IMG/VR virus record: IMGVR_UViG_3300031688_000052
Location: 1-37,352 of that record
Source: a virus
Reading direction: 5' to 3' (one strand)
DNA length: 37,352 bases
In this document: positions 852-14,464 of the stretch, one piece after another
Layout of the letters: each line of letters opens with the position of its first letter
Position numbering within the stretch: position 1 is the first letter of the stretch
Made by a program: the position numbers and the translations under genes
The notes under the pieces: generated by a model
What the model saw: only the letters and a program-made list of their open reading frames with translations
The model's database searches: none
What the model was told of the DNA's origin: nothing

Positions 852-1478
852 ATGGTTGTAGATGTTCCAGTGCAAAATATCATAGTTAATGATATTAAAT
901 TTGATGATACAAACCCAAACATACTAACCCCTGAACAAATGATTGCACTCAAATCTACAATGGAAAAATATGGATTTTTAGCACCTGTAATTTTAAACAA
1001 AAATTTAGAAGTAATTGACGGTGAGCATAGAGTTACAGTGTATAAGGAATTAAAAAAAGAAACAATTCCTGCTTATGTGTTAGATATAGATACCATTGAC
1101 AAGAAAATTTTAAGACAATTAATGAACAAGTTAAGAGGTGAGCATGATCCATTCAAAGATAAGGAAGAATTTAAAATGATACATGAGGCAGGGAGATTAA
1201 ATGACTTTACTGATTTACTAGCAGTAAACATAGCAGATTTTGACAAGGTAATTAATCCACCAACTGATAACAATGAAAATAGAGAATCAGAAAAAGTAGA
1301 ATTATCACAAGAAAATTACCTTAACGGAACAATCAAACAAATGATCTTATTCTTTAGCAACGAGGATTATGAAACAATTATGCCAAAATTTGACAAGCAC
1401 ATGAAGGCATTAAACGTTGATAATCATACTGATTTAGTTTTGGAGTTTTTCAAAGAGTATGAAGCAAATCACGCTTGA
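852..1478 (+). CDS. ParB/sulfiredoxin-fold protein, first gene of the base-modification operon
   Basis: The N-terminal half (residues about 8-95) is a ParB/Srx-type domain: LTPEQMIALKSTMEKYGFLAPVILN, then the core motif VIDGEHR (54-60) and a following helix. The C-terminal half is acidic and unassigned. ParB-fold proteins can bind DNA, hydrolyse CTP or act as nucleases. In viruses they often sit beside DNA methylases or base-modifying enzymes. Here the gene overlaps the dioxygenase gene by 20 bases, so the two are probably made together. I infer a DNA-targeting or regulatory role in hypermodification. Plasmid-type partitioning is unlikely because no ParA is seen. Confidence 0.75.
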   Translation: MVVDVPVQNIIVNDIKFDDTNPNILTPEQMIALKSTMEKYGFLAPVILNKNLEVIDGEHRVTVYKELKKETIPAYVLDIDTIDKKILRQLMNKLRGEHDPFKDKEEFKMIHEAGRLNDFTDLLAVNIADFDKVINPPTDNNENRESEKVELSQENYLNGTIKQMILFFSNEDYETIMPKFDKHMKALNVDNHTDLVLEFFKEYEANHA

Positions 1479-2295
1479 ACGTAACAGCTCATTTGAGCCA
1501 AAAGAGTATTTATTAAAAAATGCAACAGATTCAGATTATGAAACATTAATCACTGATAACACGTTAATCAGGGATAAAGATACAGGGGAAATAATAATTG
1601 TTTACATGAAACTAAAGGAAGGTGTAGATGAATTAAGGGAGGCAATTATCAATTTAAAATACAACAAAGGCAGGAGGGCAGGAGGCTTAAAGAGTTATGA
1701 CAAGATATTTGGGTATATGTCTAGAATAGGATTTCAAAACGATTATTGTAGCACAGCAGGTTTCGCAAGAGAATCTCCAAAGAACCATAAGACGGTATGC
1801 GATTATGGCGATAAATTAGGTGATCTGTATAAAGAATATGTCCCAGAAATGTATGATTATCATAGTAAGATAGTAGCAGAAAAAGTAAAACCTGATTGGA
1901 TATTAGGCAATTCTCCATTTACGTCAGGCATTATCAATAAGAATAATCAATTAAATTATCATTATGATAGTGGAAATTTTAAAGACGTATTCAGTAATAT
2001 GATAGCATTTAAGAATAAAATTGAGGGTGGCAGGTTATCATTACCTGAATATAATATTGGATTTGAGATAGCAGATTCATCTGTAACACTCTTTGATGGT
2101 CAAAGAATACTTCATGGAGTAACACCAATCAAATACCTTGCACCTGAATCATATCGATTTTCTATTGTCTATTACAGTTTACAACAGATGTGGAAATGTA
2201 CTTCACCTAAGGAGGAATTGGACAGAATTAAAAAAGTTAAGACAGAAAGAAATCAAAACAGATATAAAAAAATGAAAGACGGTGAAGGTCAATAG
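1459..2295 (+). CDS. TET/JBP-like 2-oxoglutarate/Fe(II) dioxygenase (predicted DNA pyrimidine hydroxylase)
   Basis: The 278-residue protein has the double-stranded beta-helix signature of 2OG/Fe(II) oxygenases: HYD (H168, D170), the second iron ligand H219 in LHGVTPI, and R233 in YRFSIVYY for 2-oxoglutarate. GGRLSLPEYNIGFE (190-203) and the C-terminal YYSLQQMWKC match the pattern I know from phage TET/JBP relatives, as does the N-terminal CSTAGFARE segment (97-105). Members oxidise the methyl group of thymine or 5-methylcytosine in DNA. It is followed by a glycosyltransferase and a deacetylase, so the hydroxyl made here is probably glycosylated. Whether thymine or 5mC is the substrate cannot be read from sequence; no cytosine-5 methylase gene is seen. 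Confidence 0.85.
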   Translation: MKQITLERNSSFEPKEYLLKNATDSDYETLITDNTLIRDKDTGEIIIVYMKLKEGVDELREAIINLKYNKGRRAGGLKSYDKIFGYMSRIGFQNDYCSTAGFARESPKNHKTVCDYGDKLGDLYKEYVPEMYDYHSKIVAEKVKPDWILGNSPFTSGIINKNNQLNYHYDSGNFKDVFSNMIAFKNKIEGGRLSLPEYNIGFEIADSSVTLFDGQRILHGVTPIKYLAPESYRFSIVYYSLQQMWKCTSPKEELDRIKKVKTERNQNRYKKMKDGEGQ

Positions 2296-3224
2296 AATTT
2301 TTACATCTATCAACTCCCAAGTATGGAGGGTGGATAACTTATGCTTCACATTTAATTTTGCGTGACTACCCAAAGCAACATATATTCAAAGTTACAAATA
2401 GACTTGAAAAAAAAACAAGGGACTATGGATTTGGAGTAAAATATCAAAATGTGCCAAAAGAGGCATTAAAAACTTTCACTGATCCTGTCATTATTTCTCT
2501 TGATAGTCATTTCTATGATTGTGTCAAATATCTAAAAGAGCCTACTTTATTTATTCATGACACTGCTGAACCAAGTAAAAAAGAATCAGAATTATATCAA
2601 TCGTTTAAACGTGTATTAACACCAAGAAAAAGTATTGTTAAATTTTTAAAAGAAGAATATAATATTGACGCTGAATATGTAGGCACTCCATTTTATAATT
2701 ACCCAACAGGCACAGCAGAAGTCAAGACAAAAGCAATTTCAATGTGTAGAGTAGAATGGAGGAAAAATCAAGACATTATTTGTAAAGCAAATACTATGTT
2801 AGATACACCTATTGAGATTTGGGGTAAACGCAATCTAATTTATGTTTATCATACGTTGAAAGATTTAGGTTTTGATAAATGGGCAAGGGGTAAAAAAAAT
2901 ACAGGTGCTTATGATATGGATTGGATCACTAGACAAAAATTATTAAACCCTGCTAAATTTTCTATTGACCTGTCAAAATATGTAAGAGATGGGGGTGGAA
3001 CTGACTATGTTTCATTGGAAGCCATACATCATGGCACAGCAGTTGTATTTCATAGGGATTGGGTAAACATTGAAGGATCAATTTGGAAAGAAGGGTATAA
3101 TTGTTTTGCTGTTGAAACTCCAAAAGAGTTAGCAGATTTGATTAAAGAAAATCCTGATATTGAGAACGTTGTAAAGCACTCTAAATCCATTTTAAAACAC
3201 TCTATGGGGTTAAAAGTGATATGA
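2292..3224 (+). CDS. GT-B-type glycosyltransferase, predicted to glycosylate hydroxylated DNA base
   Basis: The C-terminal half has the GT4-like acceptor/donor pattern: a segment starting RVEWRKNQ, then DGGGTDYVSLEAIHHGTAVV with an acidic EAIHHG site, and EGYNCFAV before a final helix. The first TTG (2358) would remove a typical N-terminal nucleotide-fold segment, LHLSTPKYGGWITYASH, which is open upstream. No ATG, GTG or TTG exists there. GGTGA at 2281-2285 followed six bases later by ATA (2292), overlapping the upstream stop as ATAG, is my best start, giving 310 residues. If only canonical starts are allowed the gene is 2358-3224. It overlaps the deacetylase gene by ATGA. Donor sugar unknown; the deacetylase neighbour suggests an N-acetylated sugar. 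Confidence 0.75.
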   Translation: MEFLHLSTPKYGGWITYASHLILRDYPKQHIFKVTNRLEKKTRDYGFGVKYQNVPKEALKTFTDPVIISLDSHFYDCVKYLKEPTLFIHDTAEPSKKESELYQSFKRVLTPRKSIVKFLKEEYNIDAEYVGTPFYNYPTGTAEVKTKAISMCRVEWRKNQDIICKANTMLDTPIEIWGKRNLIYVYHTLKDLGFDKWARGKKNTGAYDMDWITRQKLLNPAKFSIDLSKYVRDGGGTDYVSLEAIHHGTAVVFHRDWVNIEGSIWKEGYNCFAVETPKELADLIKENPDIENVVKHSKSILKHSMGLKVI

Positions 3225-3820
3225 ACGTTTTAGCAGTAGGAGCTCACCCAGATGATTTTGAAGTTGGCTGTTACGGAACGTTAGCACAGCATAATATAGC
3301 AGGTGATAATTTATTTGGATTGACATTATGTTTAGGTGAGCATGGAGGTGATCCAGAAGTTAGAAAATCAGAGTCATTAAAAAGTGCCGATATAATTAAT
3401 ATGAAATTAGAATTTGGACATTTCAAAGATGGTATGATACCATACGATATTACTACAATATCATTTATTGAAAATTTTATTAAGAAACATAATATTGACA
3501 TTGTTTATTCTACTAGCATAAATGAAAGACACCAAGACCATAAGAATATAGGGTTGTCAGTATTAGTAGCAGGAAGAAACATACCAAAAGAGGTATATCA
3601 ATTTGAAACAATATCAACTACAAACGATTTTGATCCAAGAATGTTTAAAGATATTAGTGATGTAATTGAGATTAAAAAACAATGTATTGATCAACATAAA
3701 TCACAAGAGCATAGAACATATATTGAAAATTATGATGTAGTGAATAAATGGAGATCATTAAAACTAGGTTATCCAGAAAGATATTATGAATCATTTGAAA
3801 TTATTAAATTGGTTAAATAG
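3221..3820 (+). CDS. PIG-L/LmbE-family N-acetyl sugar deacetylase
   Basis: The 199-residue protein opens with the family's zinc motif GAHPDD (residues 7-12) and carries the second motif RHQDH (103-107). The length fits the LmbE-like fold. Known members remove acetyl groups from N-acetylglucosaminyl conjugates (GPI, mycothiol, bacillithiol pathways). It overlaps the glycosyltransferase stop as ATGA, so the two are translationally coupled. Inference: after the glycosyltransferase adds GlcNAc or a similar sugar to a hydroxymethyl base, this enzyme exposes a free amine. Acting on a free sugar donor is an alternative. Confidence 0.85.
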   Translation: MNVLAVGAHPDDFEVGCYGTLAQHNIAGDNLFGLTLCLGEHGGDPEVRKSESLKSADIINMKLEFGHFKDGMIPYDITTISFIENFIKKHNIDIVYSTSINERHQDHKNIGLSVLVAGRNIPKEVYQFETISTTNDFDPRMFKDISDVIEIKKQCIDQHKSQEHRTYIENYDVVNKWRSLKLGYPERYYESFEIIKLVK

Positions 3821-5728: not shown

Positions 5729-6151
5729 ATGCTTAATGATACTGAAACTTTAGTAATACAAACAACACGCATGAGATTAAAGGGAAAAGAGGCACTTGCG
5801 TATCTATCAGCACATGGGACTAACATTACAATACAGCATTACTATAAAGTCAAAAGTAAATTAGATTCTGAAAAACTAAATCGATTGAATGAGATAGGAC
5901 AATATGGATTTGTAGATCAACACTTGGAACGTATAGATAACTTGGAGTTGGTTCAAGAGTTATTATGGAAAAATTATTGGAAGGTTCATTTAGGTAAACC
6001 TGATACAGCGTTAAGAATACTAAGAGAAATTAGAGAGATTCAGCCATACCTATCGGCTTATTACGAAGCAACTAAACATATCATACAGAAGGATCATGGA
6101 CAAGGAAGTATCAATTTATCCAGTTTGGGAACAACAGCAGAAAGAACATGA
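5729..6151 (+). CDS. Terminase small subunit-like protein
   Basis: 140 residues, with a helix-turn-helix-like region near residues 20-45 (KGKEALAYLSAHG...QHYYKVKSKL) and long C-terminal helices. It overlaps the large terminase gene by 56 bases, the usual TerS position. The call rests on context, size and the HTH-like segment, not on a clear family motif. TerS proteins recognise viral DNA for packaging. Confidence 0.6.
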   Translation: MLNDTETLVIQTTRMRLKGKEALAYLSAHGTNITIQHYYKVKSKLDSEKLNRLNEIGQYGFVDQHLERIDNLELVQELLWKNYWKVHLGKPDTALRILREIREIQPYLSAYYEATKHIIQKDHGQGSINLSSLGTTAERT

Positions 6152-7517
6152 AGATGAATTAGTTGATTTTCCTGAATACAGGGGATTAACTTTTCAACAA
6201 TTCTGGGAAGCATTACCAAACAAGTTAGAATACTTTGACTATGAGGAAGAATTAACAACCATACTTGAATCCAATAGAAAGTTATGGGTTAAGAAGGCAA
6301 CAGGATTAGGCATTACTGAATGGACAATTAGATGGATAGCATGGAACTGTCTTAAAGATGATTATTGGAAAGATACCCAAGTTGATGTTACAGGTGTAAT
6401 TATTACAGGAGCAAATCAAGAGTTAACAAACAAGGTTGTAGGTAGATTGAAATCATTATTCAAGCATGAGTTTAAGACTAAGGAATCAGTGTGCATATTG
6501 AACGGTTGTAGAATAGAAGCATTTCCAACTAACCACTTATCCCCTGCAAGAGGACTAAATCCAAAGATAGTTATGCTTGATGAGGCTGATTTCTTTCCTA
6601 CACGATACCAAGATGAAGCACGAACAGTAGCAGAAAGATACATTCCAAAGACCAATCCTCACATACTATTGATAAGCACACCCAACTTGCCAGGAGGATT
6701 GTTTGAAAGAATGGAAGATGAAGATGATAACGGATATGTAATGAAACAGATGGACTATACAATAGGATTAAACAAAGTCTTTAGACCTGAGGACATAGCA
6801 ACAGCAAAGAAATCTCCAAGTTTTGAAAGAGAGTATAATTTAAAATATGGATTTGGTAGTGGAGATATATTTGAAGGCATAGAGAATATTATTGAAGAAT
6901 ATGATTTGACCGTTGTAGGTGGCAGGGGTGGCTGTTACGGTGATCCTGCTTTTGGCTCGTCAAACTTTGGTGTACTAGGGGGGGAAATACGAGATGATTT
7001 ATTGTATGTAACGGAAGCAAACGAATTTCCAAGACCAAGCCCAAGTGCCATGTTAGATGTAATAGAAGATATGGCTCATAGGTATAATGATAATTGTAAG
7101 ATAGATTCTGCTCACCCTGGATTTATTAGAGATTTAGAGGAACGTGGCATACCAGCTCTTCCCATTAACTTTGGACTTCAAATAAGAGATCATGAATCAG
7201 CCAACCAACAATCATTAAGAAGTAAAATGACTATCAATGCGTCACAGATGGTCAAGAATGGTAAAGTAAGAATCCACCCAAATCATACTAAACTAATTGC
7301 ACAGATGAGGTCAGCCCAATTTGATAAGAAGGGTGGAATAGATAAGACGGAATTAAACGCAGATGTATTGGATTGCTTTATCATGTGCTGTTGGGACTTG
7401 AAAGAGTTTGATTATGGACATTACGATATTATGGCAAATAAATTAGTCAATCAAAATGATACCGATAAACCTAAAAGCAACAGTGGAATATCAATTAACA
7501 CAGAGGTAATTGAATGA
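6096..7517 (+). CDS. terL: Terminase large subunit (packaging ATPase/nuclease)
   Basis: The ATPase domain has a Walker A-like KKATGLGITEW (residues 66-76) and Walker B IVMLDEADFF (158-167). The C-terminal RNase H-like nuclease begins at YGDPAFG (D283 as a first metal ligand), with a late acidic motif in NADVLDCF. The 473-residue length is normal. It pumps DNA into the prohead through the portal and cuts the concatemer. The start codon lies inside the TerS frame. The next gene overlaps its stop as ATGA. Confidence 0.93.
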   Translation: MDKEVSIYPVWEQQQKEHEDELVDFPEYRGLTFQQFWEALPNKLEYFDYEEELTTILESNRKLWVKKATGLGITEWTIRWIAWNCLKDDYWKDTQVDVTGVIITGANQELTNKVVGRLKSLFKHEFKTKESVCILNGCRIEAFPTNHLSPARGLNPKIVMLDEADFFPTRYQDEARTVAERYIPKTNPHILLISTPNLPGGLFERMEDEDDNGYVMKQMDYTIGLNKVFRPEDIATAKKSPSFEREYNLKYGFGSGDIFEGIENIIEEYDLTVVGGRGGCYGDPAFGSSNFGVLGGEIRDDLLYVTEANEFPRPSPSAMLDVIEDMAHRYNDNCKIDSAHPGFIRDLEERGIPALPINFGLQIRDHESANQQSLRSKMTINASQMVKNGKVRIHPNHTKLIAQMRSAQFDKKGGIDKTELNADVLDCFIMCCWDLKEFDYGHYDIMANKLVNQNDTDKPKSNSGISINTEVIE

Positions 7518-8171: not shown

Positions 8172-8527
8172 TGGCATACGGTCTTTATCTCTTAATGGAT
8201 CAGCCAAAATGGTTTAGAGGGGATTTTAGCACTACAAACAAACTGACAGGGACATTATACTCTGATCAGAAATTTACAAGAAAAGCAGATTTAACAGGAT
8301 TTACAATTACAATTAGACTAACAAAGAATCATAGATGGGGAGATTATTTTAACAGAGTTGGAAGCATTGTAAGTGCTACCAATGGAACATTCTCATACGC
8401 AATAGCAGAGAATGAATTGCCACCACCTGGACTATACAATGTCAAGATTGAATTATCTAAATCAGGTGCTAGAGAATCAACATTAAATAGACAGGAATTA
8501 TTAATCATTGAAGGTGCCACAGCTTGA
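8171..8527 (+). CDS. BppU-like beta-sandwich virion protein (118 aa)
   Basis: The middle reads DLTGFTITIRLTK and later GTFSYAIAENELPPPGLYNVKIEL, the pattern of N-terminal BppU/baseplate domains that attach fibres to tails. A second protein of the same style is at 22020. GTG start coupled to the upstream mini-ORF; its stop overlaps the TTG of the portal gene. Structural role inferred. Confidence 0.55.
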   Translation: MAYGLYLLMDQPKWFRGDFSTTNKLTGTLYSDQKFTRKADLTGFTITIRLTKNHRWGDYFNRVGSIVSATNGTFSYAIAENELPPPGLYNVKIELSKSGARESTLNRQELLIIEGATA

Positions 8528-9867
8528 ATAATCCCTTTAAAGAAACTAGAATTGAGGAAGCCAAAGCACCATTAGCAAAGATAGTCAGATCAGATTTTTC
8601 AAGGGAGCAACCAATACAAGTTACATTCGAGCAGTTGATTAAGTATCACGACAGGACACCACAATTACAAATAGCAGTATCATCTTATTCAGAATTAATA
8701 ACAGGGACAGAAATGAATGTCACTTGTGAATCAGATACAGCAACAGAGATACTAAACGATTGGATAAGACAATCTGATTTTTATACAAAGTTTGAAAACA
8801 TGGTCACTACCTGTCTAATCACAGGCAACAGTATCTTAGAGAAATTAGATGAGAATGATATTCAAGACGTTGAGGAAGTTGATATGCAAACCATCATAGC
8901 CAAGAAAAGAGATGAGTTTGGAAAGTTAGAACATTACGAGCATAGAACAAACAACGGTCAAACAGCTAAACTGGGAGCAGGTAAACTGGGAAAATTTATC
9001 GAATTTAATTTAACAAACTATTCTAAACAGGCATGGGGAAAATCATTATTTTATTCACTAGCCATTCCAAGAACAATAGGCAACAGAACAACTCCACCGT
9101 TAATTGAAGTCATGTGGTCAATCGAAGATGCTATGTCAGCCATCATTATGAATAACGCTTATCCAATTACAACAATTACTTATCCAGGTGCTAGTGATCC
9201 ATACTTAGAAAAAGAAGCAGTAAGATGGCAAAAATACAAGCCAGGTGACAAGAGAGTTCAAAAGATAAAGCCTGAAATAGATTTCTTTGAAACAGCAGGG
9301 AATAGTAAGTACACTGATTACATTACTCACTTGGAGAAAGTGTTTGAATTAGGCACTCAATTCCCACACGACATAATGACGGGTGACTTTACTAGCAGAG
9401 CCTCATCTGAAACAACAGATAACATTGTAATGAAAAGAGTAAGAGGTTATCAGCGTTATTTGGCTAACAAACTAAAAGTAGAATTATTTGATAACATACT
9501 AATCCAAAACGGATATGATCCAGAATTGGAAGAATGTAAAGTTGCTTTCACTACACAAAACATTGTAGAGTTACAAGTTGATCAAATTAAAGAATTATCT
9601 GTACAAGGGTTAATGACCAAATCAGAATCAAGAGAATGGTTAAGAGTTAACACTGGAATGGAATTACCTGATGATGATGAGATACAAGCAAATCAAGACG
9701 CACAAGCAACCATAGCCAAAAACGCACAGGACATTAAGAAGGAGCATTTCATTAAAGATAATCTAAAACAAATATCAGAAGTAAAAGCAAAGACAATAAG
9801 GAAATGTAAGATGTGCAAAGAATCTCAACACGCCCTTTGTACCAAACGTGGGTGTCAATGTCAATGA
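8524..9867 (+). CDS. Portal protein
   Basis: 447 residues, with the all-alpha/beta order and length of tailed-virus portal proteins: an N-terminal wing with WIRQSDFYTKFENMVTT, then LEKVFELGTQFPHDIMTG before the long stem helix, and a QNIVELQVDQIKELSVQGLMTKSE-type C-terminal region (quoted in part: QIKELSVQGLMTKSE). It follows terL in the standard order. The last 25 residues carry five cysteines (CKMCKESQHALC...CQC), an unusual zinc-binding-like tail. TTG start overlaps the previous stop. Confidence 0.85.
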   Translation: MNNPFKETRIEEAKAPLAKIVRSDFSREQPIQVTFEQLIKYHDRTPQLQIAVSSYSELITGTEMNVTCESDTATEILNDWIRQSDFYTKFENMVTTCLITGNSILEKLDENDIQDVEEVDMQTIIAKKRDEFGKLEHYEHRTNNGQTAKLGAGKLGKFIEFNLTNYSKQAWGKSLFYSLAIPRTIGNRTTPPLIEVMWSIEDAMSAIIMNNAYPITTITYPGASDPYLEKEAVRWQKYKPGDKRVQKIKPEIDFFETAGNSKYTDYITHLEKVFELGTQFPHDIMTGDFTSRASSETTDNIVMKRVRGYQRYLANKLKVELFDNILIQNGYDPELEECKVAFTTQNIVELQVDQIKELSVQGLMTKSESREWLRVNTGMELPDDDEIQANQDAQATIAKNAQDIKKEHFIKDNLKQISEVKAKTIRKCKMCKESQHALCTKRGCQCQ

Positions 9868-10088
9868 CTGAGTTTGACGATTTGACTAAAAGAATATTGG
9901 ACAAACTAGATACCTTTGAAGAAAAAATCGAGGGACTATGTGAACGTCTAATGAAGGTGGAATATGAATTGAATCATCATTTCAAAGACATAGAACAAAA
10001 GCAATCAAACAAGGATAGGAAATTCTACATTGTAATAGCAGGTATGGGTATTATTTTCACTTTGTACGAAATTATAAAAGGTTTTTAA
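9864..10088 (+). CDS. XhlA-like coiled-coil membrane protein (74 aa)
   Basis: A charged coiled coil (KRILDKLDTFEEKIEGLCER) is followed by a C-terminal membrane segment (FYIVIAGMGIIFTLYEII). This is the architecture of the hemolysin XhlA / holin-accessory family. ATG 9864 overlaps the portal stop, so I reject a longer frame starting inside the portal gene. Inference: a lysis or membrane-anchor role. Confidence 0.6.
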   Translation: MTEFDDLTKRILDKLDTFEEKIEGLCERLMKVEYELNHHFKDIEQKQSNKDRKFYIVIAGMGIIFTLYEIIKGF

Positions 10089-10091
10089 TAG
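10082..10091 (+). promoter_or_regulatory. Possible TATA box of the structured RNA
   Basis: TTTTTAATAG, about 28 bases before the first paired base (10112) of the RNA structure downstream. A second AT-rich box (TATAATATA, 10105-10113) would start transcription inside the structure and is less fitting. Confidence 0.3.
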
Positions 10092-10111
10092 GGATTTTTT
10101 ACCATATAATA

Positions 10112-10246
10112 TAGCCGTCAGGGAATCAACTTGAGTTGTGTTTCTAGATAACCTGAAAAAGTTATCCCTCTTAGGCTACCAACCAAGACGTATTGCGTGA
10201 GCATACCACAGGTTTTAAATCCTGTCATTGAGGTTGGTATTTCTTA
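10112..10246 (+). ncRNA. Candidate structured non-coding RNA, two multi-branched domains
   Basis: Domain 1 is closed by TAGCC (10112-10116) with GGCTA (10174-10178). It contains AGG/CCT (10120-10122 with 10167-10169), a CAAC-TTGA-GTTG hairpin (10127-10138) and a GATAAC/GTTATC hairpin (10147-10166). Domain 2 is closed by CCAACC (10179-10184) with GGTTGG (10232-10237). It contains a hairpin with a GNRA-type GTGA tetraloop (10190-10206) and an ACAGG/CCTGT stem with an 8-base TTTTAAAT loop (10208-10225). The closing stems are directly adjacent and could stack. The T-arm-like piece resembles tRNA, but the acceptor arrangement does not fit. A short T-rich stretch follows. No open frame covers it. 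Confidence 0.55.
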
Positions 10247-10256
10247 ATATTATGGG

Positions 10257-10264: not shown

Positions 10265-10295
10265 ATCAATAATAATATACTAATTATCAAGCTGT

Positions 10296-10346
10296 CATTG
10301 AGAATATCTTTGGCGTATGATACTAACCATTGAGAATATCTTTGGC
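10296..10346 (+). repeat. Two 19-base direct repeats, 32-base period
   Basis: CATTGAGAATATCTTTGGC occurs at 10296-10314 and 10328-10346, separated by 13 bases. CTGTCATTGAG also links the first copy with the end of the structured RNA (10223-10232). No third full copy was seen. Candidate iterons, protein-binding sites or a small-RNA repeat; too short and few for a CRISPR array. Confidence 0.75.
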
Positions 10347-10376
10347 AATCGTCATAAGTCTTGATACTTATTTTTA

Positions 10377-10392
10377 GTTAATTTTTTTTAAC
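10377..10392 (+). terminator. T-rich terminator-like element
   Basis: GTTAA and TTAAC flank a run of Ts (8 Ts in all), after the direct repeats and just before the next promoter. Archaeal transcription ends at such T-tracts. Confidence 0.4.
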
Positions 10393-10896: not shown

Positions 10897-10938
10897 TATA
10901 TACTAGAGAGTGAAAGAATGTAGATACATCATCACTCT
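10897..10938 (+). promoter_or_regulatory. TATA-like box plus hairpin upstream of the protease gene
   Basis: TATATACTAG (10897-10906) is followed by a hairpin: AGAGTGA (10907-10913) pairs with TCACTCT (10932-10938), and inside it ATGT pairs with ACAT around an AGAT loop. It could be a leader structure or an operator. A separate box nearer the gene fits the start better. Confidence 0.4.
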
Positions 10939-10974: not shown

Positions 10975-11559
10975 TTGAACCTTCAAGCATATACTTCCGT
11001 TAATGAATCTGCTCACATTACAGGTGTAGCATTAATTCCAAGAATATCCAGAAATAATAATTTATACACTAAACAGGAATTAGAACGATTTGATGGTGTA
11101 ACTGTTCCGCTTAATTGGGAACATGATCCAACTAACGTAATTGGTCAAGTTACATTCCATTACAACCCAAGCCAAGAAACTGTCTATTATGAGGGGGAAA
11201 TAACCAATGAAGCCTCCGCAAACGTAGCAAGAAACAAACTGCTATTCACTAGCATAGAAGCAACACCAACAGATGTTCAAGAAATCTGTAATGGAGAATC
11301 TGATTGTTTTGCCATGCCATTTGGTTTACGTCCAGAAGGATTAGCATTAACAGAAACACCAGGTGTCCCAGAAACATCTGTTAAAGTTATAGAGAAATAT
11401 ATTGCAGAATGTAACCATCATGAGTTAGAAGCTGACGCAGTAGCAAAGGTTGAAGGAGTAACTACAACTGACTTTATCAACTTTAAGAATCAACTAATGG
11501 ATCATCTACACGTTGAGGAATGTGGCGATTGTCATAAACTACACTCAAAAAAAAACTAA
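10975..11559 (+). CDS. Prohead protease (zero-frame product)
   Basis: A 194-residue protein with the capsid-maturation protease pattern: LNWEHDPTNVIGQV (H50), YYEGEI, LLFTSIEATP (S93, candidate nucleophile) and LALTETPGVPETS. It lies just before the capsid gene, the usual place. The C-terminus has CGDCHKLH, then a run of nine As (11547-11555) and the stop. The sequence A AAA AAC (11550-11556) directly before TAA is a classical -1 slippery site and opens into the KTSC frame. TTG start chosen from the TATA spacing. Confidence 0.8.
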   Translation: MNLQAYTSVNESAHITGVALIPRISRNNNLYTKQELERFDGVTVPLNWEHDPTNVIGQVTFHYNPSQETVYYEGEITNEASANVARNKLLFTSIEATPTDVQEICNGESDCFAMPFGLRPEGLALTETPGVPETSVKVIEKYIAECNHHELEADAVAKVEGVTTTDFINFKNQLMDHLHVEECGDCHKLHSKKN

Positions 11560-11943: not shown

Positions 11944-11964
11944 GTGCCTTTTGCTGAATTAGTT

Positions 11965-13410
11965 ATGCCTTGCGACTGTAACAAAAAAACAGAAGCTGAC
12001 GATGATAACAAAAAAGAATGTCCTGAGGGACAAAGCTTTGATGTATCTCAAGGTAAATGTGTAGCAAAAGAATCTGCATTTGGTGATCCAAAAGCTGATT
12101 CAACTATTGGCGACTTAGCCAGTAATGGATCAGATGTTGGAGATAAACAAGAAGTTGAAGGTTGTCCAGAAGGACATTCCATAGACGCAACTTCTGGCGT
12201 TTGTCAACCAAATGGTTCTGATAAGACTGACAGCATTGGTCAAACCAACGCTTCAATCGCAACAGAGAAGAAACTAGCTAGCATTGAAAAATCCTTAAAG
12301 GCTCTAACAGAAAAGAAACCTACTGCTCAAATCTCTAATCTAGATGATGGAGTTTACACTTGGAAACAAGTAGCAGAAAATATGGCACCTTCTTTAAGAA
12401 AGTTTGGTAAATTTGAGTTTGACATTAATTTGGAAAGCTTAAGATCAATTAACACTAAACAATCTAAAGATAGAATGGGACAAGTTACTGAATCTTTCAG
12501 AGCTTCTCCACTTCAATTACAAGAAGCAGTAGCCATATCTGGAACACACGCAACACAGGACTTAGACACTGATGTAGCACTTGTTCCTGGCGGTTTATCT
12601 TTTAGACCTGTATTTGAGTTTGCTAAAGTCAAACGTATCGAAGCAGGTATGGATAGAGCAAGATTTTTCAAGACAACTATTCCTGCAAATGGATCACAAA
12701 CCGTTGGATCAACTCCATCACAAGCAACACAAACCTTCACATCAATCGAGGTCACTCCAAGCACTATCACAGGTGTTTACTTAGTAGGTGACTTTGATGA
12801 GATTGAAAATTCACCATTTGACTTATTACAAGCCATTGTTGAAGGCTCTGCCTCAAGTTATGAAGACTTTGTAGCAACTGATATGTTGGACACAAAATCC
12901 AAAGAAGGAACACTCACACCTGGATTATGGATCAGAGGGGACACAGGAGCAACCATTACTTCAAGTAATGTAGCAGCTATGGTCTTTGATGAAACAGCAA
13001 TCGCAGTTGGTCGTGAGTATCTTGAGAATCAAGGATATTTGAGAGGTGGAATAAAACCTGTCGCATTTTTGCACCCGCAACAATGGAGACAACTCATTAC
13101 TTCAACAAACGTAACTTCATTAGCAACTAGATCAGCACCTGACATTTGGCTCAAAGCAGAACTTGAGCAATTTATGGGTGTTCAATTAGTTGTTTCTAAC
13201 GCAGTTGAAGAAAAATCACAAACTAATAACGCATACAACGCAATCATTTGTGTTCCAAAACACTCATACGGTATTGGAATCAAAAGAGATGTAACTGTTA
13301 AGATGCACGAAGTTGGTGAAGACAACCAAGTTAGAGTGAACACTACTTGGAGAACAATGACAGGTATTATTGATGCCACATCTATCGTTAGAGTTTCTAC
13401 AACAGTTTAA
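11965..13410 (+). CDS. Major capsid protein, HK97 fold
   Basis: 481 residues from ATG 11965; GTG 11944 would add seven. The N-terminal 130 residues are acidic and hold two cysteine repeats, CPEGQSFDVSQGKC and CPEGHSIDATSGVC, then a short coiled coil (KKLASIEKSLKALTEKK) like a scaffolding delta domain. The rest fits HK97-type capsid proteins: an N-arm, a spine/A-domain with AFLHPQQWRQLI, GVQLVVSNAVEE, and a late beta-rich IKRDVTVKMHE...RTMTGIIDATSIVRV (shown in part). It follows the protease. Own promoter and a strong terminator suit high expression. Confidence 0.88.
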   Translation: MPCDCNKKTEADDDNKKECPEGQSFDVSQGKCVAKESAFGDPKADSTIGDLASNGSDVGDKQEVEGCPEGHSIDATSGVCQPNGSDKTDSIGQTNASIATEKKLASIEKSLKALTEKKPTAQISNLDDGVYTWKQVAENMAPSLRKFGKFEFDINLESLRSINTKQSKDRMGQVTESFRASPLQLQEAVAISGTHATQDLDTDVALVPGGLSFRPVFEFAKVKRIEAGMDRARFFKTTIPANGSQTVGSTPSQATQTFTSIEVTPSTITGVYLVGDFDEIENSPFDLLQAIVEGSASSYEDFVATDMLDTKSKEGTLTPGLWIRGDTGATITSSNVAAMVFDETAIAVGREYLENQGYLRGGIKPVAFLHPQQWRQLITSTNVTSLATRSAPDIWLKAELEQFMGVQLVVSNAVEEKSQTNNAYNAIICVPKHSYGIGIKRDVTVKMHEVGEDNQVRVNTTWRTMTGIIDATSIVRVSTTV

Positions 13411-13440
13411 TCAGCTTAACTGATTGATTTTTTTTATTTC
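13409..13440 (+). terminator. Hairpin plus T-tract terminator after the capsid gene
   Basis: AATCAG and CTGATT pair around a CTTAA loop (13409-13425), followed by a run of eight Ts (13428-13435) and more Ts. It separates capsid transcription from the next promoter. Confidence 0.65.
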
Positions 13441-13443
13441 ATC

Positions 13444-13450
13444 TATAAAT
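13444..13450 (+). promoter_or_regulatory. TATA box of the secreted-protein gene
   Basis: TATAAAT, 31 bases before ATG 13475. Confidence 0.6.
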
Positions 13451-13474
13451 AAGGGGACATTCCGCACTAACATA

Positions 13475-14464
13475 ATGACATGGAAAATAACAGCAATTCT
13501 AGCATTACTGATAACATCAGGTGTAGGATTAGCACAAGCAGAAACTTCAACAATAGAAGTTCCATTTGATTCAAGAGGAACATCATGTTGGTATGATGAA
13601 ATATCAATAGAGTATCATTGTACTTGGCAAGGGGTAATTGAGAAATTCACTATTGAGGATTTGAAAGAGTTTAAAGACGTACTTTCAAACGAAAGATATG
13701 ATCAAGAGATTGAACGACTTAATCAAGAAGCATTAGAAAAAATTGCCATTGAAAAAGCAAAATTATCTCCTGATGAAAAAATTATTCTAGAAATAGAACA
13801 AAAACTCAACAAGGGAATAGCAACTGCAACAGATTCAGTATTAATGAATATGTTAAAGGAACTCAACACTTGCCGACAAGGAATGGATTCAAGAACCACG
13901 CACATACAAACTGCCAGGGAATTTGAGATTTCAGATTTCAAACTTTGGTCAGTGAACAATGTAAAGTATGATGGTAGATTGGGAGATATAGCAAAAGCCA
14001 TTGAGGAATGTAAATCTCAAAAAATAGTCTATGATCTTAGTGTAGGTTATCAAAACTTTGCTACAGGAGAAAATGATCATCAGTTTAGTTTGATGGACAT
14101 ATACACTCCTGACGTTCAAGCAGTTCCTTATGACAAACTCAAGAGTACTACATTCAATATCAACCTACAAGTAATTTGTAATGATCGACAACATCATGAT
14201 GAATACAAGAAACAACTTGGTTGTGACATTAGAATGAATGGACAAACAGAAGCAGAAATTCAACGTGAGAATGAGTTAAGATTTGGAACAGATGGTTTGA
14301 TACATTATCAAAGTGAAGCATTAGACAAATACTTTGAGTTTATGAAAACCTATGGAAACATCTATGCAACTGTTGAGGACAAAAAGGTTCAAGAGGCTAT
14401 CGCTGAACCTATTGCAAAAAAAGCAATAGAGGATAACCACTTTTACCAAAATTATAAGGATTAA
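13475..14464 (+). CDS. Secreted protein with signal peptide (329 aa)
   Basis: From ATG 13475 the N-terminus is a clear Sec signal: TWK, a hydrophobic core ITAILALLITSGVGLA, then AQA before E22 as cleavage site. A longer frame from 13424 would bury it and ignore the TATA box. The mature part has a helical EIERLNQEALEKIAIEKAK stretch and cysteines at several points (CWYDEISIEYHC, CRQ, CNDRQ, GCD) that could form disulfides. Its style resembles secreted proteins of ammonia-oxidising archaea, so capture from a host is possible. A virion or host-envelope protein; function unknown. Confidence 0.75.
   Translation: MTWKITAILALLITSGVGLAQAETSTIEVPFDSRGTSCWYDEISIEYHCTWQGVIEKFTIEDLKEFKDVLSNERYDQEIERLNQEALEKIAIEKAKLSPDEKIILEIEQKLNKGIATATDSVLMNMLKELNTCRQGMDSRTTHIQTAREFEISDFKLWSVNNVKYDGRLGDIAKAIEECKSQKIVYDLSVGYQNFATGENDHQFSLMDIYTPDVQAVPYDKLKSTTFNINLQVICNDRQHHDEYKKQLGCDIRMNGQTEAEIQRENELRFGTDGLIHYQSEALDKYFEFMKTYGNIYATVEDKKVQEAIAEPIAKKAIEDNHFYQNYKD

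Follow-up and report, generated by a model that had tools for sequence, protein, structure and literature searches.

A modular structured RNA among the head genes of a virus most likely infecting ammonia-oxidising archaea

The window, the whole stretch of viral DNA analysed here, is 37,352 nt long (positions 1 to 37,352 of IMG/VR virus record IMGVR_UViG_3300031688_000052). Between its portal gene with a small adjoining ORF on one side and its head protease and capsid genes on the other lies a 135-nt stretch (10112-10246) that comprises two adjoining structured domains on the + strand. The first-pass annotation had described the stretch as gene-free, and indeed both closing stems lie where there is no ORF of 60 aa or more. 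The features of the locus are as follows.

6096-7517: terminase gene
8524-9867: portal gene
9813-10088: small ORF upstream of the RNA
10083-10090, + strand: TATA box TTTTAATA for the RNA, overlapping the stop codon of the preceding small ORF and starting 34 nt before GTCA
10111-10179, + strand: domain 1, a module A, with P1 TAGCC/GGCTA, the invariant internal loop GUC(A)/CUUA and the stem AGGGA/TCCCT (match to model R2, pairs kept)
10133-10158, + strand: module D, the conserved apical loop GAGUUGUGUUUCUAGAUAACCUGAAA topping domain 1 (a related hairpin occurs elsewhere)
10177-10239, + strand: domain 2, or module G, a three-way junction with P1 TACCAACC/GGTTGGTA (10177-10184/10232-10239; model R1 and covariation)
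10190-10206, + strand: P2 hairpin of domain 2, GUAU, U bulge, GC, GUGA loop, GC, AUAC
10208-10225, + strand: P3 hairpin of domain 2, ACAGG/CCTGT, whose loop varies
10239-10250, + strand: T-rich stretch 3' of the last helix, seen in the sequence and presumed to end transcription
10907-10938, + strand: module B hairpin, AGAGTG-A-AAGA-AUGU-AGAU-ACAU-CA-U-CACTCT, just 5' of the protease gene
10975-11559: head protease gene
11944-13410: major capsid protein gene

The terminase shares 44% identity with its counterpart in the Nitrososphaera provirus Pro-Nvie1, which was the sole phage record matched, and no DNA similarity of the virus to named phages was found. Based on this match and on the archaeal TATA boxes, the window most likely belongs to a head-tail virus infecting ammonia-oxidising (thaumarchaeal) hosts. 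The portal protein has CKMCKESQHALCTKRGCQC at its end. Elsewhere in the window, a weak ParB_N match, a Tet/JBP-type dioxygenase (PF12851) and a PIG-L deacetylase (PF02585) stand side by side (852-3820), a possible DNA-modification cluster of the virus.

The closing stems TAGCC/GGCTA (10112-10116/10174-10178) and CCAACC/GGTTGG (the latter within P1 of domain 2) are both present and directly adjoining. The 135-nt stretch folds with a minimum free energy of -36.5 versus -27 in shuffled controls (z about -2.5), and a few shuffles (3-7/200) folded equally well. The opposite strand is nearly as stable (z -2.3). Folding energy by itself is thus modest and merely suggestive, and the initial claim that the complementarity is far beyond chance does not hold on energetic grounds; it does hold for covariation. 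The comparison drew on 40 viral contigs that carry a related portal gene. In the 16-20 relatives compared, all modelled helix pairs are kept, many of them via double changes. Across both domains in the closer clade (16 sequences), all 32 pairs are intact and 11 show double changes. G-U pairs are frequent on the + strand: one pair is U-G in 9 of 14 sequences and another is G-U in five. Read from the opposite strand, such pairs would turn into A-C mismatches, and the RNA is therefore encoded on the + strand. We conclude with high confidence that the stretch encodes an independent structured noncoding RNA. The covariation, the position and the lack of an Rfam match at E-values up to 10 support the original proposal of a novel compact structured RNA between packaging and capsid genes. 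The checks named there as able to refute it favour an RNA: covariation is strong, few shuffles fold equally well and no known family matches.

Covariation in domain 2 was strong. All 15 pairs are intact in 14 distinct sequences and nine show double changes; none of 500 shuffles equalled this signal, and sliding the pairing partners abolished it. P1 varies from 6 to 11 bp among relatives with both strands co-varying, while double changes occur in five of the six pairs of P2 and three of the five pairs of P3. The P2 hairpin with its bulged U and GTGA tetraloop, already spotted in the first reading of the sequence, is conserved through compensatory changes, and its GUGA loop is invariant, as are the elements CCAAGA, CGUGAG and CAUUGAGG. 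A hairpin that had been likened to a T-arm is an ordinary variable stem, whose loop differs in sequence and length among relatives; ARAGORN detects no tRNA. Model R1 detects a single domain 2 in each portal-clade member that is long enough, always in the same place and with 66-83 bits (single in 8/8 records). R1 matches are absent from portal-clade relatives of 63-70% identity, within the sequence available for them, which indicates that this packaging machinery can do without domain 2. Domain 2 is also absent from the Nitrososphaera provirus and is confined to the portal clade of the window virus.

In relatives, domain 1 retains one long interrupted stem (AGGGA/TCCCT, then AACTT/AAGTT) below a conserved 26-nt loop, and its pairs are kept in 15 distinct sequences. 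Each closing stem was originally thought to enclose two hairpins. This is true of domain 2, with P2 and P3, and not of domain 1, where the CAAC/GTTG and GATAAC/GTTATC hairpins are not conserved in relatives and were rejected. R2, a covariance model of module A built from 26 sequences with the window's clade left out, finds domain 1 at an E-value of 1.2e-8 (29.9 bits), the next-best match in the window having an E-value of 0.8. Because a model derived from distant viruses recovers it at this level, we consider domain 1 a module A. A search with a looser domain 1 pattern returned mostly chance matches. A relative of loop D forms a separate hairpin 3' of module A in contigs L231, L239, L246, L279 and L282, and all 20 contigs found with loop D also carry module A or domain 1. 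The loop, GGAUUCUAGAUACC in most members, presumably resembles the 790 loop of 16S rRNA (GGAUUAGAUACCC). In a second clade (L026-L033), a simple hairpin takes the place of domain 1; here, a small zinc-ribbon ORF ends just upstream of the RNA promoter.

Of 45 non-redundant loci, 38 have a TATA match that lies 33-36 nt upstream of the invariant GUCA; control intervals gave 0-4 and shuffles an average of 1.9 (maximum 8). The spacing of archaeal TATA boxes is an established rule for locating start sites, and it would place the start in the window at the first base pairs of P1 (about 10110). A T-rich stretch 3' of the last module is also seen in many relatives. Given the phased TATA box and the T-rich stretch, the simplest reading is a stand-alone RNA of 65-150 nt, of which both the expression and the 3' end are predicted from sequence features. 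Separate TATA boxes for each module seem to be present in the window, L227 and L235. Small Cys-rich (CxxC) ORFs often end just 5' of the promoter (L197, L203, L206, L210, L217, L200, L215 and L227). Downstream of the RNA, a region at 10274-10378 with a closing stem TATCAAG/CTTGATA and two copies of CATTGAGAATATCTTTGGC, preceded by its own TATA box GGGTTTATATT at about 10254, may be a further small RNA; its fold is weak (z -1.5) and its sequence was found only in this virus and L002/L042.

Modules A and B also occur well beyond the window. The module B pattern matches 57 viral contig stretches, a set that includes a few likely chance matches (L198/L226, L216 and L220). In 31 distinct sequences, 5.45 of the six pairs of its outer stem are formed versus 2.98 with shuffled partners. 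Many of the new module B copies lie just 3' of the element GUCAGGGAUUACC...GGUAGCCCUCUUA, which is module A. The P1 of module A is free in sequence yet paired, with double changes in all six pairs, while the invariance of its GGG/CCC stem is imposed by the search pattern. Among 39 non-redundant loci, module A is followed by B in 11, by E in at least eight, by F in four and by D in three; the patterns used assigned no 3' partner to the others. The window RNA shares the features of this family: a module A, a TATA box at -34 and a directly following second module (domain 2). While the RNA itself was borne out, the first-pass annotation had overlooked its promoter, the modular family across viral contigs and the module at 10907-10938.

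Several other elements were observed in this family. Module E (CCGTTCT-stem-AGGTCG-stem-...CACGTAAGA...) is conserved and structured, lies 3' of module A and sometimes has its own TATA box (L234, L235, L237, L242, L243, L245, L248, L251, L256, L272 and L285). Module F comprises ~100 nt around GTTGCAACGTGRATAAAGCCGTCACCTGCAAC and is found 3' of module A in L236, L249, L258 and L270. Ahead of module B, module A is replaced by other 5' elements, namely GTTCG.TGATTAGATTAAATTCGTCACGAACC and CGGAACGTCTA..TAGAGTCCGACTTAGCC, in L205, L222, L230 and L204, L213, L218.

Module A is single in all 27 viral records with a match in the R2 search. The filtered search misses a divergent TGGG variant in G001, which cmsearch on L006 detects. 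Its genomic place differs among groups. Module A lies between the portal and protease genes in the window's clade, and about 1-2 kb upstream of the terminase gene in the L197 group, whose terminase and portal are about 31% and 28% identical to those of the window. In a third setting, comprising 36 loci, it lies beside an unrelated portal gene (PF04860/phrog_18178). Among the loci with identifiable genes, many have the RNA near terminase, portal or capsid genes. The module B-carrying RNA of L202, L209 and L212 is 5-6 kb from the portal gene, which shows that the association with head and packaging genes, though real, is not universal. Since position is inherited within a group, the linkage represents a few independent events.

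Downstream of the capsid gene, the window encodes a 346-aa protein with a signal peptide and without a family match (13424-14464). Homologues that are 33-58% identical lie close to the RNA in L202, L212, L213, L244 and L274, where the other genes are unrelated; the protein is probably a marker common to viruses of the same host group. Together, the Nitrososphaera-like terminase, the window-like terminase and portal in the second group and the conserved secreted protein in others suggest that the module A viruses share a host group.

We next considered what the RNA might do. Its conserved internal loops and junction are held by helices of arbitrary sequence, from which we infer that it binds protein, the partner most likely being viral or host, and the place of its gene points to head assembly or packaging. 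In the proposed mechanism, the TATA promoter at 10083 would start a ~130-nt + strand RNA at the first helix (about 10110), and the transcript would end in the T-rich stretch after 10239. This RNA would consist of a 5' module A, here with loop D, and an exchangeable 3' module, here G and elsewhere B, E, F or D. Protein-binding platforms would most likely be formed by the invariant internal loops and the junction. Working in trans, the RNA would be a scaffold or a cofactor, with head assembly or DNA packaging as the most likely stage. As a combined statement, we give an independently transcribed modular noncoding RNA that acts in trans, most likely in head assembly or packaging, an even chance. 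The head or packaging role taken separately is possible and rather doubtful. The swapping of 3' modules counts against a motor RNA, of which one conserved architecture would be expected. An antisense RNA was rejected, since no complementarity to other parts of the virus genome exceeds 13 nt, a length that shuffles also reach.

The main rival to a head or packaging role is that an abundant viral RNA mimics host RNA elements and titrates an RNA-binding, translation or RNA-processing factor, with different exchangeable modules targeting different host proteins. A mosaic of such modules with invariant loops and their own promoters would be consistent with this, as would the presumed likeness of loop D to the 790 loop. 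However, the rRNA-like resemblance is confined to one short motif, and the linkage to head genes would be left unexplained. Moreover, a search of 84,980 species genomes for the exact core of domain 2 gave seven matches, every one of them in bacteria and roughly as many as chance would give, so that a host-genome copy of the domain was also dismissed. We consider such a decoy unlikely. The idea of a tRNA-like decoy gained no support; ARAGORN finds no tRNA and the T-arm-like loop is not conserved.

The RNA could instead be part of the adjacent late mRNAs, as a leader, 3' UTR or termination or processing structure. Its location between co-directional genes, the T-rich tail that follows and the position of module B just 5' of the protease gene would agree with this. 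Nevertheless, we find a cis-acting element improbable: the RNA has its own TATA box at a fixed distance with a predicted start at the first helix, the neighbours vary among groups and can be divergent genes, and the downstream genes seem to have TATA boxes of their own. Proximity to the terminase and portal genes and the similar folding energy of both strands could also point to a DNA element such as a pac/cos site, an origin or a cruciform. This is very improbable considering the many G-U pairs kept on the + strand only, the large single-stranded conserved loops and a TATA box set at a fixed spacing from the first helix of that strand. A self-cleaving ribozyme or ligand-binding riboswitch, which the invariant junction and internal loops between variable helices might suggest, is equally improbable; there is no Rfam ribozyme or riboswitch match at E-values up to 10 and no constant downstream gene.

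Returning to a trans-acting modular RNA, we tentatively propose, at slightly less than even chances, that viruses of ammonia-oxidising archaea share an undescribed combinatorial noncoding RNA class. Its members would join a common 5' module to interchangeable 3' modules drawn from a pool, each module having a partner of its own, and would be essential in head assembly and packaging or in host takeover. If true, such RNAs would be an RNA-level counterpart of modular viral proteins. The family is widespread, as the module A pattern alone matches 66 viral contig stretches, has a defined structure, promoter and predicted start, and can be searched for directly with models R1 and R2. If expressed, these RNAs would provide a handle on viruses of a very abundant marine archaeal group, and module swapping would be a natural experiment on the binding partner of each module.

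Finally, we compared the RNA with known systems. Rfam 15 had no match to the window or 16 related contigs at the gathering threshold. The open-access papers searched contain no report of structured RNAs from this group of viruses, and neither they nor Rfam yielded an RNA family for thaumarchaeal tailed viruses. ARAGORN predicted no tRNA or tmRNA genes, and such an identity was rejected. Domain 2 resembles a tRNA in that its closing stem is 7-8 bp long and one of its hairpins pairs over 5 bp below an 8-nt loop. Unlike a tRNA, it has no D arm, anticodon arm geometry or CCA end, a 6-nt linker precedes the closing stem and the loop is variable; what relatives conserve is a three-way junction that includes a GUGA hairpin, and no cloverleaf.

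The phi29-type pRNA forms an oligomeric ring on the prohead portal and is needed for packaging. It resembles the window RNA in being a small structured RNA of a tailed virus with one gene per genome and a multi-helix junction, encoded near packaging functions, here in several groups though 5-6 kb from the portal gene in L202, L209 and L212. The two differ in that there is no sequence or structure match in Rfam, and in that the RNA described here has exchangeable 3' parts, an archaeal promoter and a presumed archaeal host. GOLLD and ROOL are structured RNAs of phages and prophages, of unknown function, that were found by covariation; they are bacterial, exceed 600 nt and often lie near tRNA islands, and GOLLD is divided into a conserved and a variable region (PMC12286853). 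The window RNA is likewise a virus-associated structured RNA recognised by covariation, whereas it is about 130 nt long, has an archaeal-type promoter, lies near head genes and has no Rfam match. In sequence and structure it matches none of these, and we regard it as a new type of viral RNA, with the phi29 pRNA and GOLLD/ROOL as its nearest counterparts in kind.
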